A stretch of 41,979 nucleotides of DNA from a virus. Every line of letters starts with the position of its first letter. The first letter of the stretch is position 1. The stretch spans positions 1-41,979 of the IMG/VR virus record IMGVR_UViG_3300036791_001036, one strand, 5' to 3'. The position numbers and the translations under genes are program-made. Shown piece after piece: positions 3,953 through 37,656 of this stretch. Under the pieces are notes generated by a model. It was given only the letters and a program-made list of their open reading frames with translations. It was not told where the DNA came from and searched no databases.

Positions 3953-4026
3953 CCGGCCCCCTGCCCGCTCGCCGCCGGGGTAAGCCGGTCAAAATCGCTA
4001 CGGTCGGGCCCGGCCAAAAGCGTCCA

Positions 4027-4074
4027 TGCCTCCCTTCGCGATTTCGCGAGTTTTGCACTGGCGTATGGGAGGCA
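4027..4074 (+). promoter_or_regulatory. Inverted repeat that can mask the methylase ribosome binding site
   Basis: TGCCTCCC at 4027-4034 is the exact reverse complement of GGGAGGCA at 4067-4074. The right arm contains the GGAGG ribosome binding site of the methylase starting at 4080. A smaller CGCG/CGCG hairpin lies inside the loop. Base pairing would hide the ribosome binding site. The region 3953-4079 holds no gene that I can support. Confidence 0.5.
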
Positions 4075-4079
4075 GGCGT

Positions 4080-5387
4080 ATGACCGATCCCGACGCGCGG
4101 CAGGACGTCGGCACGCTCGTGCCCGACCCGACGAACCGCCGCACGCACCCCGCGCGCAACCTCGAGATGGTCGAGGCGTCCCTGCGGCGCGTGGGGGCGG
4201 CGCGGTCGATTGTCATCGACGAAGACGACGTGATCCTCGCGGGCAACGGCGTCACGGACGCGGCGAAGGCGGCCGGGATCACGCACGTGCGTGTGATCGA
4301 GGCCACGGGCGACGAACTGATCGCCGTGCGGCGGCGGGGCCTGACGCCCGACCAAAAGCGCGAACTCGCGATGTACGACAACCGGTCGGCCGAGCTAGCG
4401 GAGTGGAACTTTGACCAGTTGCGCGCGGATGCCGACGCCGGGCTCGACCTGAAAGCGTTCTGGTCAGCGGAGGAACTCGCCGCACTCCTGGCGACCGGCC
4501 TGCGCGAGGGCCAGACGAGTCCTGACGAGGTGCCACCGGTCCGCGAGACGTCGATCCAGTCGGGCGACGTGTTCGATCTCGGGCCGCACCGGCTGATCTG
4601 CGGCGACAGCAGTGACGCCGCGCAGGTCAGTCGCCTGCTGCGGACCGACGCCGCTGACGCCCTGTTCACGTCGCCGCCGTACAACGTCGGGGTGAACTAC
4701 GCGACGCACGACGACGCGACGCAGACCCTCGACGTGTACTTCGCGCACTTGAGTCGGCTCGCGCACGTGTGGGCGACGACGCTGCGCAAGGGCCGCGCGT
4801 TCATCTGGAATGTCGGCGTGAGTCCGAAGACCGCGCCGCACCGGCACGTCGCCATGTTGGAGGGCGTCGGGCTGACGTTCGTGCGCCAGTTCATCTGGCA
4901 AAAGACCGGCGTGCCGGTGCCGACGTTCTACGCGACGCGCGCGGATCCAAGCGTGCGCCGCCTGACCTCGAACTACACGCACGAGATGGTCTACGTCCTG
5001 ACCACGGGCGCGGATCTCGAGATCGGCGCACCGCAGGCGTTGCGCAACGAGGTCCTGGAGCACGACGTCTTCAGCGTGCATCAGAGTCAGGCGACGGTCG
5101 ACATCCCGGCAGGTGCGCAGCGGACGGGCGTGCAGTCGAACCTCGACCGGCGATCGCACCCGGCCGCGTTTCCGGTCGCGCTCGTGATCGCGTTCCTGCA
5201 GCACTACACCGCGCCCGGCGAGATCGTGGTCGAACCATTCGCGGGGTCGGGCTCGACGCTGATCGCGTGCGAGCAACTCGGCGCGCGGTGCTTCGCGATG
5301 GAACTCGCCGCCGAGTACGTGCAGGTCGCGATCGACCGCTGGGAAGCGTTCACCGGGCAGAAGGCACAGAAGCTGGCGGGCCTATGA
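4080..5387 (+). CDS. ParB-like domain fused to DNA methyltransferase (SPPY type)
   Basis: 435 residues from ATG 4080, preferred over an earlier ATG at 4026 because GGGAGG lies just upstream. Residues about 10-100 form a ParB/sulfiredoxin-type N domain (DPTNRRTHPARNLEMVEA, then AGNGVTDAAKAAG). The methylase domain has the catalytic SPPYN at 198-202 before the S-adenosylmethionine-binding FAGSGST at 387-393, the order of beta-class amino-methyltransferases. SPPY is typical of N4-cytosine and some N6-adenine enzymes, so the methylated base cannot be told. Fusions like this are frequent in phages and are thought to protect phage DNA from host restriction. The stop overlaps the small terminase ATG, tying expression to packaging genes. 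A second, differently arranged fusion lies at 36298-37656. Confidence 0.9.
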   Translation: MTDPDARQDVGTLVPDPTNRRTHPARNLEMVEASLRRVGAARSIVIDEDDVILAGNGVTDAAKAAGITHVRVIEATGDELIAVRRRGLTPDQKRELAMYDNRSAELAEWNFDQLRADADAGLDLKAFWSAEELAALLATGLREGQTSPDEVPPVRETSIQSGDVFDLGPHRLICGDSSDAAQVSRLLRTDAADALFTSPPYNVGVNYATHDDATQTLDVYFAHLSRLAHVWATTLRKGRAFIWNVGVSPKTAPHRHVAMLEGVGLTFVRQFIWQKTGVPVPTFYATRADPSVRRLTSNYTHEMVYVLTTGADLEIGAPQALRNEVLEHDVFSVHQSQATVDIPAGAQRTGVQSNLDRRSHPAAFPVALVIAFLQHYTAPGEIVVEPFAGSGSTLIACEQLGARCFAMELAAEYVQVAIDRWEAFTGQKAQKLAGL

Positions 5388-6722: not shown

Positions 6723-7039
6723 GCCGCGCGCCGATGACCTACTGGCAACGCAACGGTCCCGGCCTGATCATCCTCGCCGCCTTCGGCGTCGCCCTCGTCG
6801 CGACCGCCGTCTGGTCGGTGTGGCCCCGCTCGCTGACGCCCGCGCAGGAACTGCACAACCGGCTCGACAAACTCGGCCCGGCCTACGACACGACGCCCCG
6901 GCCCATCGATCCGGGCTGGCGGCAGCAAGTGAATACCCAAGTCGCGCAGATGAAGCGCGAGCGCGCGCAGTGCATCCTGCGCGGCGGCGACGCGGACGCC
7001 TGCACCGAACTCGTGCTGCAAGCGCACGGTGGCCGATGA
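6719..7039 (+). CDS. Small single-pass membrane protein
   Basis: 106 residues. A hydrophobic segment (LIILAAFGVALVATAVW) at about residues 16-33 is followed by a soluble, charged C-terminal region with two cysteines. Likely anchored in the host inner membrane. Role unknown. It could act in superinfection immunity, as do many prophage membrane proteins close to integrases, but nothing proves it. Overlaps both neighbours by four bases. Confidence 0.65.
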   Translation: MSRAPMTYWQRNGPGLIILAAFGVALVATAVWSVWPRSLTPAQELHNRLDKLGPAYDTTPRPIDPGWRQQVNTQVAQMKRERAQCILRGGDADACTELVLQAHGGR

Positions 7040-7284
7040 GCGCGCCGACCCGCCTCACGCCGGAGCAGCGCGCGACGCGCGGCATCCGGGGCTGGACGCG
7101 CGCGTACTCGTCGACGGGCGAGGGCCGGAACTACCTGCTCAAGAACATCCCGGCGCGCCTCTACATCCGCGCGCGCGCGAAGGCGCGCGGCGAGGGCATC
7201 TCGATGCGCGAGCTGTTCATGCGACTGCTCACCGACTACGCGACGACCCCGGCCACCCACCACGAGGAGAGGAACGAATCATGA
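7036..7284 (+). CDS. Ribbon-helix-helix-like DNA-binding protein
   Basis: 82 residues. The C-terminal half has a beta strand NYLLKNIPARLYIRARAKA followed by helices around ISMRELFMRLLTDYA, which fits a ribbon-helix-helix repressor that binds DNA as a dimer. Four-base overlap with the integrase gene suggests it helps control integration or excision. It is a regulator candidate only. Confidence 0.65.
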   Translation: MSAPTRLTPEQRATRGIRGWTRAYSSTGEGRNYLLKNIPARLYIRARAKARGEGISMRELFMRLLTDYATTPATHHEERNES

Positions 7285-8717
7285 GCGACGCGACGGTGAA
7301 CAAACGCTGCGACTGCGGCGAGGCGAAGTGGACCAAGTGCGGCGACCCGTGGTACATGGGCGCGTTCTGGTGGCAGGGGCACCGCTACCGCGACTGCGTC
7401 ACCGACTGGGCGCGCGCGGTGCTGCACGAGACGATCACGACGAAGACGCGCGCCGAGGAAGTCGCCGAGGAGATGCGGTCGCGGATTCGCGCGGGCACGT
7501 TCGTCAGCGCCCGGGCCGCGCGCAAGGCGACGCCGCCGCCAGACGCGGCGATGACGCTCACGGCGCTGATCGCGTTGTTTGAGCGCGAGGTGCTCGACGT
7601 CAAGACGGGCGACGCCGACGACACGAGCGACGAGACGGTCGAGGCAAACAAGGCGCGCCTGAAGGCACTCGCCGCGTTCGAGGGGTGCGGCGCGCGCCCA
7701 GCGGCGGCGCTCGATTACGCCATGCTCAAGCGGTTCCGCACCAGCGCCGCGATGCGGGCGCAGGGGCGCAGCTCTTGGGGGAAGCACTGGGGCGTCTACC
7801 GGCGCCTGACCCGCTTCGGCGCGCACGCGGGCGTGCTGCCGCGCGATCCGCTCGCGACCGAGGCGCTCAGCGAAGCCGAGTACGACGTCGTGCGGCGGCG
7901 CAAGCCCGAGCCGCGCGGGCGGCGGCTGCGCGACGGCGAAGAGGCGGGGCTGCTCCAGGCGGCGCGCGTCGGCAAGTTCGCGTTCGACGTGCAGCGGCTG
8001 CTCGACGTCATCGTCGCGGCGCTCGAATGCGCCGGGCGGAAAGGCGAGCTGTTCGCGCTCAAGGTCGGCGACTGCTACTTCCCGCCCGGCGGCGACCCGT
8101 TTCTGATCTTCACGGCGACCGAGAAGGGCGCCCGCAAGCGGCGCGGCAAGTCGCGCGTCGTCCCCATCTCGGAGCGGCTGCTGCCGGTCCTGCTCCGGCG
8201 CCTGACGAGCACGATCACGGGCGAGCCGCTGCCGCCGACGGCGTACGTCTTCGGCAACGAGGTCGGCGAGCGGATCACCCGGCTGAAGTCGTGGGAGGTC
8301 GCGATCGCGCGCATGGAGCTGGGGCACGAACCGGCGCTGCGCCGGGGCAACCTCGACACCAAGGCGCGGGCGGCGTACCACGGGTCTGACCTACACTTCC
8401 ACGACCTGCGCCGGGAGTGCGCGAGCCGCTGGCACGAGCGGGGGGTCTACACGCTGGCCGAGATTCAGGCGACCCTCGGGCATACGAACCTCGCGCAGAC
8501 GAGCGAGTATTTGGGCATCCAGCCGGGGTCGCCGTTCGCGTCGCTGCGGCGGTATCAGGCCGAGCAGCGCCGCCTCGCGGCCGAGCCGCTGCCGCTGGCG
8601 GTCGGCTCGAACGGCCACACGTCGGCCACAAGCCCCGACGCGGGGGCGGACACGGGCGCCGGGCCGCGCCTCGTGAAAGGCAACAAAGCGCGTGGGGACA
8701 GCACCTTACCGGACTGA
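7281..8717 (+). CDS. int: Tyrosine integrase
   Basis: 478 residues. The N-terminal part has CDCG and C20, a likely small arm-DNA-binding domain, followed by a SAM-like core-binding domain (about 90-190). The catalytic domain carries R253 (ECAGRKGE), K290, the box HDLR (H374, R377), H401 in LGHTNL and the nucleophile Y410 in SEYLGI. All catalytic residues are present, so the protein should be active. The last 60 residues are a low-complexity tail. It integrates the phage at a host attachment site; the probable attP lies just downstream. The gene sits between the two terminase genes, which is unusual. Confidence 0.95.
   Translation: MSDATVNKRCDCGEAKWTKCGDPWYMGAFWWQGHRYRDCVTDWARAVLHETITTKTRAEEVAEEMRSRIRAGTFVSARAARKATPPPDAAMTLTALIALFEREVLDVKTGDADDTSDETVEANKARLKALAAFEGCGARPAAALDYAMLKRFRTSAAMRAQGRSSWGKHWGVYRRLTRFGAHAGVLPRDPLATEALSEAEYDVVRRRKPEPRGRRLRDGEEAGLLQAARVGKFAFDVQRLLDVIVAALECAGRKGELFALKVGDCYFPPGGDPFLIFTATEKGARKRRGKSRVVPISERLLPVLLRRLTSTITGEPLPPTAYVFGNEVGERITRLKSWEVAIARMELGHEPALRRGNLDTKARAAYHGSDLHFHDLRRECASRWHERGVYTLAEIQATLGHTNLAQTSEYLGIQPGSPFASLRRYQAEQRRLAAEPLPLAVGSNGHTSATSPDAGADTGAGPRLVKGNKARGDSTLPD
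8612..8630 (+). promoter_or_regulatory. Candidate integrase arm site, left pair
   Basis: CGGCCACA occurs at 8612-8619 and again at 8623-8630, start-to-start spacing 11 bases. The same octamer pair with the same 11-base spacing recurs at 8873-8891. Paired direct repeats flanking a non-coding stretch beside an integrase are typical of arm-type binding sites. This pair lies within the integrase C-terminal coding part. Confidence 0.45.
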
Positions 8718-9050: not shown

Positions 9051-11738
9051 GTGAACGCGCTGGACCGCTACGCGACCGCCATCACGGCCGGGCGCCTGCC
9101 CGCCGGGAAGTACCACGTCGCCGCCTGCGCCCGCCACCTGCGCGACCGGGCCCGGGAAGGGCGGCGCGGGTTCCCGTACCGCTTCGAGCTGGCGCGCGCC
9201 GAGCGCTTTTTCCGCTTTGCGGCGGCGCTCCGGCACTACAAGGGGCAATGGGCCGGGCAATTGATCCAGCTGCAGCCCTACCAGCAGTTCCGGCTCGGCT
9301 CGATCTTCGCGTGGACCTCGACGCGCACCGGGCTGCGCCGCTTCCGCACGGCCTACAACGAGCTGCCCCGCAAGAACGGGAAGGCGCTCGCGATTGACAC
9401 GCCGGTCCCGACGCCTCGGGGGTGGACGGCGCACGGCGATCTGCGCGTCGGCGATACCGTCTTCGGGCCGGACGGACGTCCGATTCGCGTCGAATGGGTC
9501 GGTCCCGTCCAGACCGGGCCGTGCTATCGGCTGACGCTCAGCACGGGCGAGACGTTCATCGCCCATGCGGCGCATGAATGGGTCACGTCGCGAACGTGGT
9601 ACACCGGGCGGCGCAAGGGATCGCGCGCGCCCTTACCACCGGTCGAAACCCAGCAGATTGCGACGACGCTGCGGCAGAGCGGCGCGCGTGGGGATTACGT
9701 GCATCGCATTGCCGTCGCGGACGGGCTGCAGCTGCCGACCGCGCCCGTGACGATTCCGCCCTATATCCTCGGCGCGTGGCTCGGCGATGGCACGAGCCGA
9801 TCGGGATCGATCACGGTGGCCGACGTCGAGATCGTGACGCGCATGCGCGCGGAAGGCCGGTCCGTGCACGCCGTCTCACGCCACGGCGCGGCGACGCTCT
9901 ACCGGATCGGGGGCCACCAGGGCGCCCAGTGGAGTTTCACGTCGCAATTGCGGCGGCTCGGCGTCCTGGGGCGCAAGCACATTCCACCGCAGTACCTGCG
10001 CGCGTCCTATGCGCAGCGCCTCGAATTGTTGCGGGGGATTGTCGACACCGATGGCTATCTCGGCCCGAAGGGCGTTTATGAAGTCGTCACCGTATCCGCG
10101 CGACTGGCCGACGACTACCGCGAATTGATTCAATCGCTGGGGCTGAAATGTACGCGGACGGAGGATCGGGCGCGTCTCCACGGGAAGGATTGCGGGCCGC
10201 GCTACCGCCTGAACTTTTCCGCGCATCACGATCAGGTCGCGACCGTGCCACGAAAACAGACCACGTGGCAGCCCACGACCCGTCGGCGCAGTCGCGCCCG
10301 CACCATTATCGCCTGCGATCCGTGCGAACCGGTGCCGGTCAATTGCATCCAGGTCGAGGGCGGCGTGTATCTCGCCGGGCGCGCGATGGTGCCCACGCAC
10401 AACTCGCTCGAAGCCGCCGTCGTGGCGCTCTACGTGTCGTTCTTCGACAACGAACCTGGAGCCGAAGGGTACGTGATCGCCACCAAGCGCGAGCAGGCGC
10501 GCATCGTGTTCAACGACTGCAAGCGGCTCGTGCAGTCGAGCGGGCTGCGCTCGCGGATCGCCGTGCTGACGGCGAACCTGCACCGCGACGACACGGCGAG
10601 CAAGCTCGAACCGCTCGGGGCCGACCGCGACTCGACCGACGGGCTGAACCCGCAGATCGTCACGATCGACGAAGCGCACGCCATGAAGCACCGGGGCCTG
10701 ATCGACGTCATGGAGACGGCGACCGGCGCCCGGCGGCAGCCGCTCATCCACTGGATCACGACGGCGGGCTCGGACCCGTTCAGCCCGTGCGGCGACCAGC
10801 ACGACTACGCGTGCAAGGTGCTCGACGGCATCGTCACCGACGAGACGCTGTTCGCGTTCATCGCGCACGCCGACGTCGACGACGACCCGTGGGCCGAGGC
10901 GACGTGGCGCAAGGCGAATCCGAATTACGGCGTGAGCGTCCTGCCCGCCGACCTGCACGCGCTCGCGCACAAGGCGCGCAACATGCCGCCCGCCGCGAAC
11001 GCGTTCAAACAGAAGCGCTTAAACCTCTGGATTCAGGCGCTGACGCCGTGGCTGTCGCTCGACGGCTGGCGGCGCGGGCAGACGGCGTGGACACTCGACG
11101 ACCAGCGCGGCGCGCCGTGTTACATCGGCATCGACATGTCGAGCAAGATCGACCTCACGGCGGTCGCGCTCGTCTTTCCGCCGACGGCGGATCGCGCATC
11201 CTGGCGCATCGTGCCGTGGTGTCTGACGCCGGAGGACACGCTGGACGACCGCGCGCACCGCGACCGCGCCCCATACCGGCAGTGGCTCGCGCTCACCAAG
11301 ATCGGCGCGACCCTGCGCACGAACCCGGGCAACCGCATCGACCAGGACCTCGTGCGGGATCTGGTGCGCGAGGCGGCGGCGCGCTTCGACGTGCAGGCGG
11401 TCGGGCTCGACCCCTGGAACGCCGGGAACCTCGTGCAGCATCTCGTGGACGACGGGTACCTCGTGACCGAGGTGCCGCAGAACCTGTCGCAGATGAGCGC
11501 GCCCGCGAAGGACTTCGAGGCGGACGTGCTCGACGGGCTCGTCGATGCCTGCGGCGATCCGCTGATGCAGTGGTGTGTCAGCAACGTCGTCGTCCAGCGC
11601 GACAACAAAGACAACATCTACCCGACGAAGCGCCGCAGCCGGGGCCGGATCGACCCCGTGATCGCCGCGCTGATCGCGCGCAAGCTCGCGACGATGGGCA
11701 CGATCGTCGCCGACGATCCCCAACTGGTGGTCGCTTGA
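9051..11738 (+). CDS. terL: Terminase large subunit, interrupted by an intein
   Basis: 895 residues as translated, GTG start. After removal of the intein (residues 112-451) the mature protein would have 555 residues, normal for the family. Motifs in the exteins: a Walker A P-loop rejoined as PRKNGKS across the splice point, Walker B with catalytic glutamate in VTIDEAH, and nuclease aspartates in YIGIDMSSKIDL and VGLDPWNAGN. It is the ATP-driven packaging motor and DNA cutter acting at the portal. Because the intein splits the P-loop between K and S, the ATPase can only work after splicing. The small subunit lies 3.2 kb upstream, on the other side of the integrase. No clear ribosome binding site is visible before the GTG. 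Confidence 0.95.
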   Translation: MNALDRYATAITAGRLPAGKYHVAACARHLRDRAREGRRGFPYRFELARAERFFRFAAALRHYKGQWAGQLIQLQPYQQFRLGSIFAWTSTRTGLRRFRTAYNELPRKNGKALAIDTPVPTPRGWTAHGDLRVGDTVFGPDGRPIRVEWVGPVQTGPCYRLTLSTGETFIAHAAHEWVTSRTWYTGRRKGSRAPLPPVETQQIATTLRQSGARGDYVHRIAVADGLQLPTAPVTIPPYILGAWLGDGTSRSGSITVADVEIVTRMRAEGRSVHAVSRHGAATLYRIGGHQGAQWSFTSQLRRLGVLGRKHIPPQYLRASYAQRLELLRGIVDTDGYLGPKGVYEVVTVSARLADDYRELIQSLGLKCTRTEDRARLHGKDCGPRYRLNFSAHHDQVATVPRKQTTWQPTTRRRSRARTIIACDPCEPVPVNCIQVEGGVYLAGRAMVPTHNSLEAAVVALYVSFFDNEPGAEGYVIATKREQARIVFNDCKRLVQSSGLRSRIAVLTANLHRDDTASKLEPLGADRDSTDGLNPQIVTIDEAHAMKHRGLIDVMETATGARRQPLIHWITTAGSDPFSPCGDQHDYACKVLDGIVTDETLFAFIAHADVDDDPWAEATWRKANPNYGVSVLPADLHALAHKARNMPPAANAFKQKRLNLWIQALTPWLSLDGWRRGQTAWTLDDQRGAPCYIGIDMSSKIDLTAVALVFPPTADRASWRIVPWCLTPEDTLDDRAHRDRAPYRQWLALTKIGATLRTNPGNRIDQDLVRDLVREAAARFDVQAVGLDPWNAGNLVQHLVDDGYLVTEVPQNLSQMSAPAKDFEADVLDGLVDACGDPLMQWCVSNVVVQRDNKDNIYPTKRRSRGRIDPVIAALIARKLATMGTIVADDPQLVVA
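9384..10403 (+). mobile_element. Intein with LAGLIDADG homing endonuclease, class 3 features
   Basis: 340 residues inserted after the P-loop lysine; the next extein residue is serine. It starts with Ala-Leu-Ala instead of Cys, ends with PTHN, and has W in block B (AHAAHEWVTS), C at the block F position normally held by Asp (VNCIQVEG) and T just before the final His-Asn. A1 plus this W-C-T set is the published signature of class 3 inteins, which start splicing through the block F cysteine. The middle contains two LAGLIDADG motifs, LGAWLGDG and LLRGIVDTDG, with their acidic residues intact, so the homing endonuclease may be active. Boundaries rest on the splice-junction pattern and the restored P-loop. 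Confidence 0.9.
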
Positions 11739-36297: not shown

Positions 36298-37656
36298 ATG
36301 CCAGCCGTCGCCGTTGACGCCATCGTGTTTCGTGAGGACCTCTATCCGCGCGTCGAAACGAGCGCGGTAATGGTTCAAAAGTACGCAGACGATCTCGCCG
36401 TACTACCGCCGATCGAAGTCAATCAACATCACGAGCTGATCGACGGTTGGCACCGCTGGACCGCCCACAAAAAGGCGAAGGCAGCCGAGATCCCGATCAC
36501 GATCACGACCACCAAGGATGACGAGCACCTGCTCGAACTGGCGATCGAGCGCAATGCGCGTTTCGGCTTTCAGTTGTCGACGAATGACAAAAAAACGGTC
36601 GCGCGGCGGCTGTATCGGTCGGCTACGCCCGAATCACGCGGCGCGAAAAAGCAGCGGCTCGCGGAAATTCTGTCGGTCTCGTACGACACGATTGCCAATT
36701 GGCTGTCGCGCGTGGACAAGGACACTCAAGAAGAGCGCGACGCGGCGGTACAGAACCTCTATTTGCAGTGCTACACACAGGAGGAGATCGCCGAGGCGGT
36801 TGGGATGCCGCAGCCGACGGTCAATGCACTATTATCGGAAATCCGCACGTTCGGAATCCCGATAATACCAGGCATTTTCGCCGAGGATCTCAAGGACAAG
36901 CACGGCGCCGCACTGAAGGCGGCTGAGGCCGAACGGCTCGCAAGGATTACCGCCGAGAACCGCGCGGCAGCCGAGCACGCCGCCGATTTTGAGCCGCCGA
37001 TTTACAACATTTGGAAGCAACAGCAGAAGACGAACGGGAGCGGGCACTTCGGCAACAGCGAGGTGCACTGGGTCGACAATCTCCTCTACTTCTACACGCA
37101 GCCCTTCGACATCGTCGTTGACCCGTTCGCGGGCGGCGGCTCCACGCTCGACATCTGCAAGCGGCGGTTTCGGCGGTGCTGGCTGTCAGACCGGCTACCG
37201 ATCGAAGAACGGCAACGCGAGATCCGAACGCTCGATCTGAAAGACGGCCTGCCAGACCTTCGGAAGCGGTGGGCCGACGTGCGCCTTGTCTATCTCGACC
37301 CGCCGTACTGGAAGCAGGCCGAAGGCCAGTACAGCACAGACCCCGAGGACCTCGCGAACATGTCGCTCGACGAGTTCACGGCGACGCTCGCGGCGACGAT
37401 CAACGCGTTCGGAAAAAAACTGACCGCCGGTTACGTTGCGCTCATTCTCCAACCGACGCAGTGGAAGGCGCCGGACCGGCAGTTCACCGATCACGTCGCC
37501 GACATGCTGCGGGTGGTCAAATTTCCGGTCGACATGCGCTATTCGGTGCCGTACGAAAGTCAGCAGTGCACGGCGCAGATGGTCGACTGGGCACAGGCCG
37601 AACGGCGATGCCTCGTCCTCACGCGTGAAATCGTCGTCTGGCGGGTGAGGCCATGA
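36298..37656 (+). CDS. ParB-like/HTH/DNA methyltransferase fusion (DPPY type)
   Basis: 452 residues. Residues 1-95 resemble a ParB N domain ([20 protein letters not shown]). Two helix-turn-helix segments follow, near 119-140 ([18 protein letters not shown]) and 160-182 ([20 protein letters not shown]). The methylase domain has FAGGGST at 277-283 before the catalytic DPPYW at 334-338, in the opposite order to the fusion at 4080. DPPY indicates N6-adenine or N4-cytosine methylation. GGAGG lies before the ATG. Base composition is less GC-rich than the neighbours, a sign of transfer. The stop overlaps the candidate nuclease gene. Confidence 0.9.

Follow-up and report, generated by a model that had tools for sequence, protein, structure and literature searches.

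A class 3 intein with a LAGLIDADG domain interrupts the Walker A motif of a phage large terminase

The large terminase (TerL) of the virus analysed here almost certainly carries a mobile class 3 intein in its Walker A loop, which splices out after translation and spreads by homing. The DNA, a 41,979-base virus record of IMG/VR, is referred to as the window, and the features of the terminase gene and its intein given below are all on the plus strand. The assignment is based on the residue signature, the exact insertion point, homology, the predicted fold, lateral distribution and purifying selection; the reaction steps and the endonuclease activity we infer. After translation, Cys321 of block F, with His64 and Thr338, would attack the bond between Lys(-1) and Ala1 to give a branched thioester. 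The N-extein would then be transferred to Ser+1, Asn340 would cyclise and the exteins would be ligated as RKNGKS, restoring the P-loop of the ATPase. For class 3 inteins as a group this mechanism is firmly established. The LAGLIDADG domain is expected to cut intein-free terminase genes at the same conserved site, so that, we propose, the element could copy itself into other phages.

The host gene, at positions 9051-11738, is that of an HK97-type large terminase of a phage. It starts with GTG and encodes 895 amino acids in a frame that is open throughout. The outer parts of the product match Pfam TerL_ATPase (E 2e-28) and TerL_nuclease (E 6e-39) as well as phrog_9 (E 4e-140), and the genes for the portal, the head-maturation protease and the major head protein lie downstream; a search of NCBIfam gave no match for the intein or the terminase. 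The insert, residues 112-451 of the reading frame, is 340 residues long (9384-10403), in frame and without stops. It separates the N-extein, the first 111 residues of TerL (9051-9383), from the C-extein (10404-11738), which holds the rest of the ATPase domain and the nuclease domain. The former, ending in PRKNGK, was assigned from phrog_4914 and empty-site relatives, and the latter from TerL_ATPase, TerL_nuclease and alignment to a solved TerL. The junctions read NELPRKNGK / ALAIDTPVPTP...AMVPTHN / SLEAAVVALY and, by comparison with empty-site TerLs, Ser+1 (10404-10406) is both the serine of the P-loop and the nucleophile of the C-extein.

Viral contigs searched with the window C-extein gave 32 TerL relatives, 29 of them with a readable junction. 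All 29, a few of which are near copies of each other, are uninterrupted at this point and read RK(N/Q/S/T)GK[S/T] or close to that. Among them are TerLs 83-88% identical to the window C-extein, the 88% applying to the first 106 residues only. The joined exteins also align over most of their length with the solved HK97-type TerL 6z6d (E 2e-38), RKNGKS being matched by RKNGKT. The empty sites and this alignment therefore place the insert between the invariant Lys and Ser of the Walker A motif, so that the split of the P-loop between K and S described in a first-pass annotation, which had also suggested surveying terminases with empty sites, is exact. It can soundly be inferred that DNA packaging depends on splicing of the intein.

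The class 3 definition used here is that of PMC5222942 and PMC5050341, in which no nucleophile is required at residue 1 and the marker residues are Trp at B:12, Cys at F:4 and Thr at G:5. The window intein has the full WCT signature, with Ala1, His64, Trp66, Cys321, Thr338, His339-Asn340 and Ser+1. Block A (9384-9422) opens with Ala, leaving the intein without an N-terminal nucleophile. Block B (GETFIAHAAHEWV, 9546-9584) contains His61 (B:7, 9564-9566), His64 (B:10, 9573-9575) and Trp66 (B:12, 9579-9581), the catalytic Cys321 of block F (F:4) is at 10344-10346, and block G ends with Thr338-His339-Asn340 (10395-10403). These assignments come from alignment with class 3 inteins: the three best matches by sequence in the PDB are the class 3 DnaB inteins 6rix, 6riy and 6bs8 (phmmer E 7e-21 to 2e-19; the 7e-21 for MchDnaB1 is far beyond chance), and blocks A, B, F and G and every signature residue are in register with all three. 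The initial Ala, the Trp two residues past the block B His (His64-Glu-Trp66), the block F cysteine and the Thr before the terminal His-Asn had all been picked out from the letters of the window alone, and each falls where the solved inteins have it. We extended the comparison to 124 full-length inteins, made up of the window copy and related ones in phages, in viral contigs and in bacterial genomes. His B:10, Trp B:12, Cys F:4, Thr G:5 and the terminal Asn are present in 124/124. Residue 1 is non-nucleophilic in nearly all, being Ala in 111 and Cys in only one (Acidovorax phage ACF1). The class 3 type is thus backed by the solved class 3 inteins, by the 124 homologues and by a confident structure model.

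This AlphaFold2 model of the intein, built from a 40-row alignment, has a mean pLDDT of 93. Its splicing domain superposes on 6bs8 with an rmsd of 1.3 Å over 122 residues, at 45% identity, and the comparison with class 3 structures (Z 21, rmsd 1.3-1.8 Å) identifies a HINT fold; the whole model matches PI-SceI with Z 27 over about 329 residues. The structural matches thus describe a HINT domain in which block B is separated from block F by a LAGLIDADG domain. The latter domain has a PI-SceI-like fold, a match to Pfam LAGLIDADG_3 spanning intein residues 211-266, and two motifs, YILGAWLGDG (region 9756-9794, with Asp135 at 9786-9788) and LLRGIVDTDG (region 10014-10055, with Asp223 at 10050-10052). 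Both acidic residues are intact, as first reported, and each is kept in 123/124 inteins.

The closest intein, that of the viral contig L001, is 77% identical, while the TerLs carrying these two inteins are only 57-61% identical. In the intein tree the window pairs with L001 (support 100/100). This conflicts with the TerL tree, where the window lies inside a clade of intein-free TerLs (support 99/89 and 100/98); one sequence marked there as empty, L056, in fact carries a frameshifted intein. Because TerLs 83-88% identical to that of the window are empty, while an intein 77% identical sits in a TerL 57% identical, the intein must have moved laterally. The GC3 of the intein is 0.81 against 0.94-0.96 for the exteins. 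Judged from these sequences, the intein was acquired laterally at a conserved site, which is what homing would lead one to expect.

Ala at residue 1 and a nucleophilic +1 residue would also suit a class 2-like intein, in which Ser+1 itself would attack the N-junction and Cys321 would be there incidentally. This is extremely improbable, given that W, C and T are all there and are invariant in the 124 inteins, that the nearest solved splicing domains are class 3, and that Cys F:4 is essential to class 3 inteins (PMC5222942); in those tested, mutation of this residue or of Trp B:12 abolishes splicing (PMC5222942). Nor does the class 3 intein look like a decaying element that has lost splicing and left a dead terminase, which we consider very unlikely. 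Related copies can decay, as the match in L056 (902-1949) illustrates: this is a related intein at a terminase P-loop whose reading frame shifts in the stretch separating blocks A and B, which may be genuine decay or an error of sequencing. In the window, however, the frame is open and all catalytic residues are kept, and dN/dS against L001 comes to 0.07 in the splicing parts and 0.27 in the endonuclease region, estimated from this one pair of sequences and with the N-extein, where only 10 codons aligned, left out. These low values, within the limits of a single pair, argue that the splicing and endonuclease parts are both functional.

A functional class 3 intein at this position might in addition act as a conditional switch, with a disulfide between Cys47 and Cys321 making packaging responsive to oxidation. 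The analogy is with M. smegmatis DnaB intein 1, in which a cysteine forms a disulfide redox trap with the catalytic cysteine (PMC6195587). Cys47 aligns with that disulfide-forming residue, and a cysteine occupies the position in 105/124 inteins. The M. smegmatis intein, however, needs its cysteine for splicing itself, so the conservation of Cys47 does not require regulation, and we regard such a switch as rather doubtful. A further candidate, the pair C311/C314 beside the catalytic cysteine as a zinc or redox site, was rejected, both residues being present only in the window, L001 and L049.

At B:7 the window differs from the solved class 3 inteins in having His (HxxH) and not Asp; the usual, though non-defining, DxxH is therefore absent. 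Across the 124 inteins this position is Asp in 78 and A, S, G, C or H otherwise, and because of this variation DxxH cannot define class 3. A role in positioning the scissile bond at the N terminus has been proposed for the Asp (PMC6195587). His at B:7 is common to the window, L001, L002, L049-L055, L057, L058 and L077, and is found in related soil-virus inteins at the RKNGK terminase site, but the viral scan used IAHAAHE among its patterns, so that the shared residue is partly a sampling effect. The B:7 His inteins of terminase P-loops in uncultivated viruses might be a small sub-variant in which the first step is altered and the active site is HxxH, though this seems unlikely. We give the residue little weight because B:7 varies in class 3 and the scan pattern itself contained His.

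In mycobacteriophages inteins are found most often in terminases; splicing has been demonstrated for five terminase inteins and DNA cleavage for two (PMC5050341). One described site, TerL1-a, lies between the Lys and Thr of the P-loop, and the inteins of TerL1-c, -d and -e are class 3 (PMC5050341). As class 3 terminase inteins and the K/T site in the P-loop are both known, the window intein is of an already described type. The intein of phage Toto, TerL1-a by its insertion site, likewise splits the P-loop of a large terminase after the Lys and before the Ser/Thr. It shares Ala1, W, C, THN and LAGLIDADG (class 3 residues that we read from its sequence and not from the text of PMC5050341), with 37% identity over the full intein. 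It differs in a terminase C-extein that is ~26% identical, in Thr at +1 where the window has Ser, and in Ser rather than His at B:7. MchDnaB1 (6rix) and MsmDnaB1 (6bs8) resemble the window intein in the splicing domain, the WCT triplet and Cys47/48, but are mini-inteins without an endonuclease, reside in a replicative helicase and have Asp at B:7. PI-SceI, the Sce VMA intein, has the same arrangement of splicing and LAGLIDADG domains (Z 27) but is a class 1 intein in another host protein, with about 20% identity. Genome contigs scanned with a single sequence yielded no intein relative, and an alignment-based scan of them yielded 210. In the bacterial-genome matches this intein type is mostly found at DnaB-like P-loops of Actinobacteria (DnaB being called from the junction sequence and not from annotation), which qualifies the earlier description of class 3 as known largely from phages.

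General knowledge of inteins is unchanged by this example. Its value is as a well-resolved case in which a class 3 intein has recently moved laterally among uncultivated phages and filled sites can be compared with matching empty ones; it may be of use in studies of homing and as a source of an Ala1 intein for protein engineering.

Several of the related inteins depart from the common pattern. That of Acidovorax phage ACF1 (L003, 463-1512) has the full WCT signature, yet Cys at residue 1 and Asn replacing the first LAGLIDADG Asp; from its sequence it could be an intermediate between splicing classes or have a dead endonuclease. The class 3 P-loop intein of Gordonia phage YungMoney ends in Thr-Arg-Asn, not Thr-His-Asn; in L074, L075 and L080 the penultimate residue is Phe or Cys. 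Elsewhere in the window, a tyrosine-type phage integrase gene (7029-8717) lies directly upstream of the terminase, and the virus is therefore probably temperate. Of two further genes, at 4026-5387 and 36298-37656, one encodes an N6/N4 DNA methylase and the other matches methyltransferases weakly.
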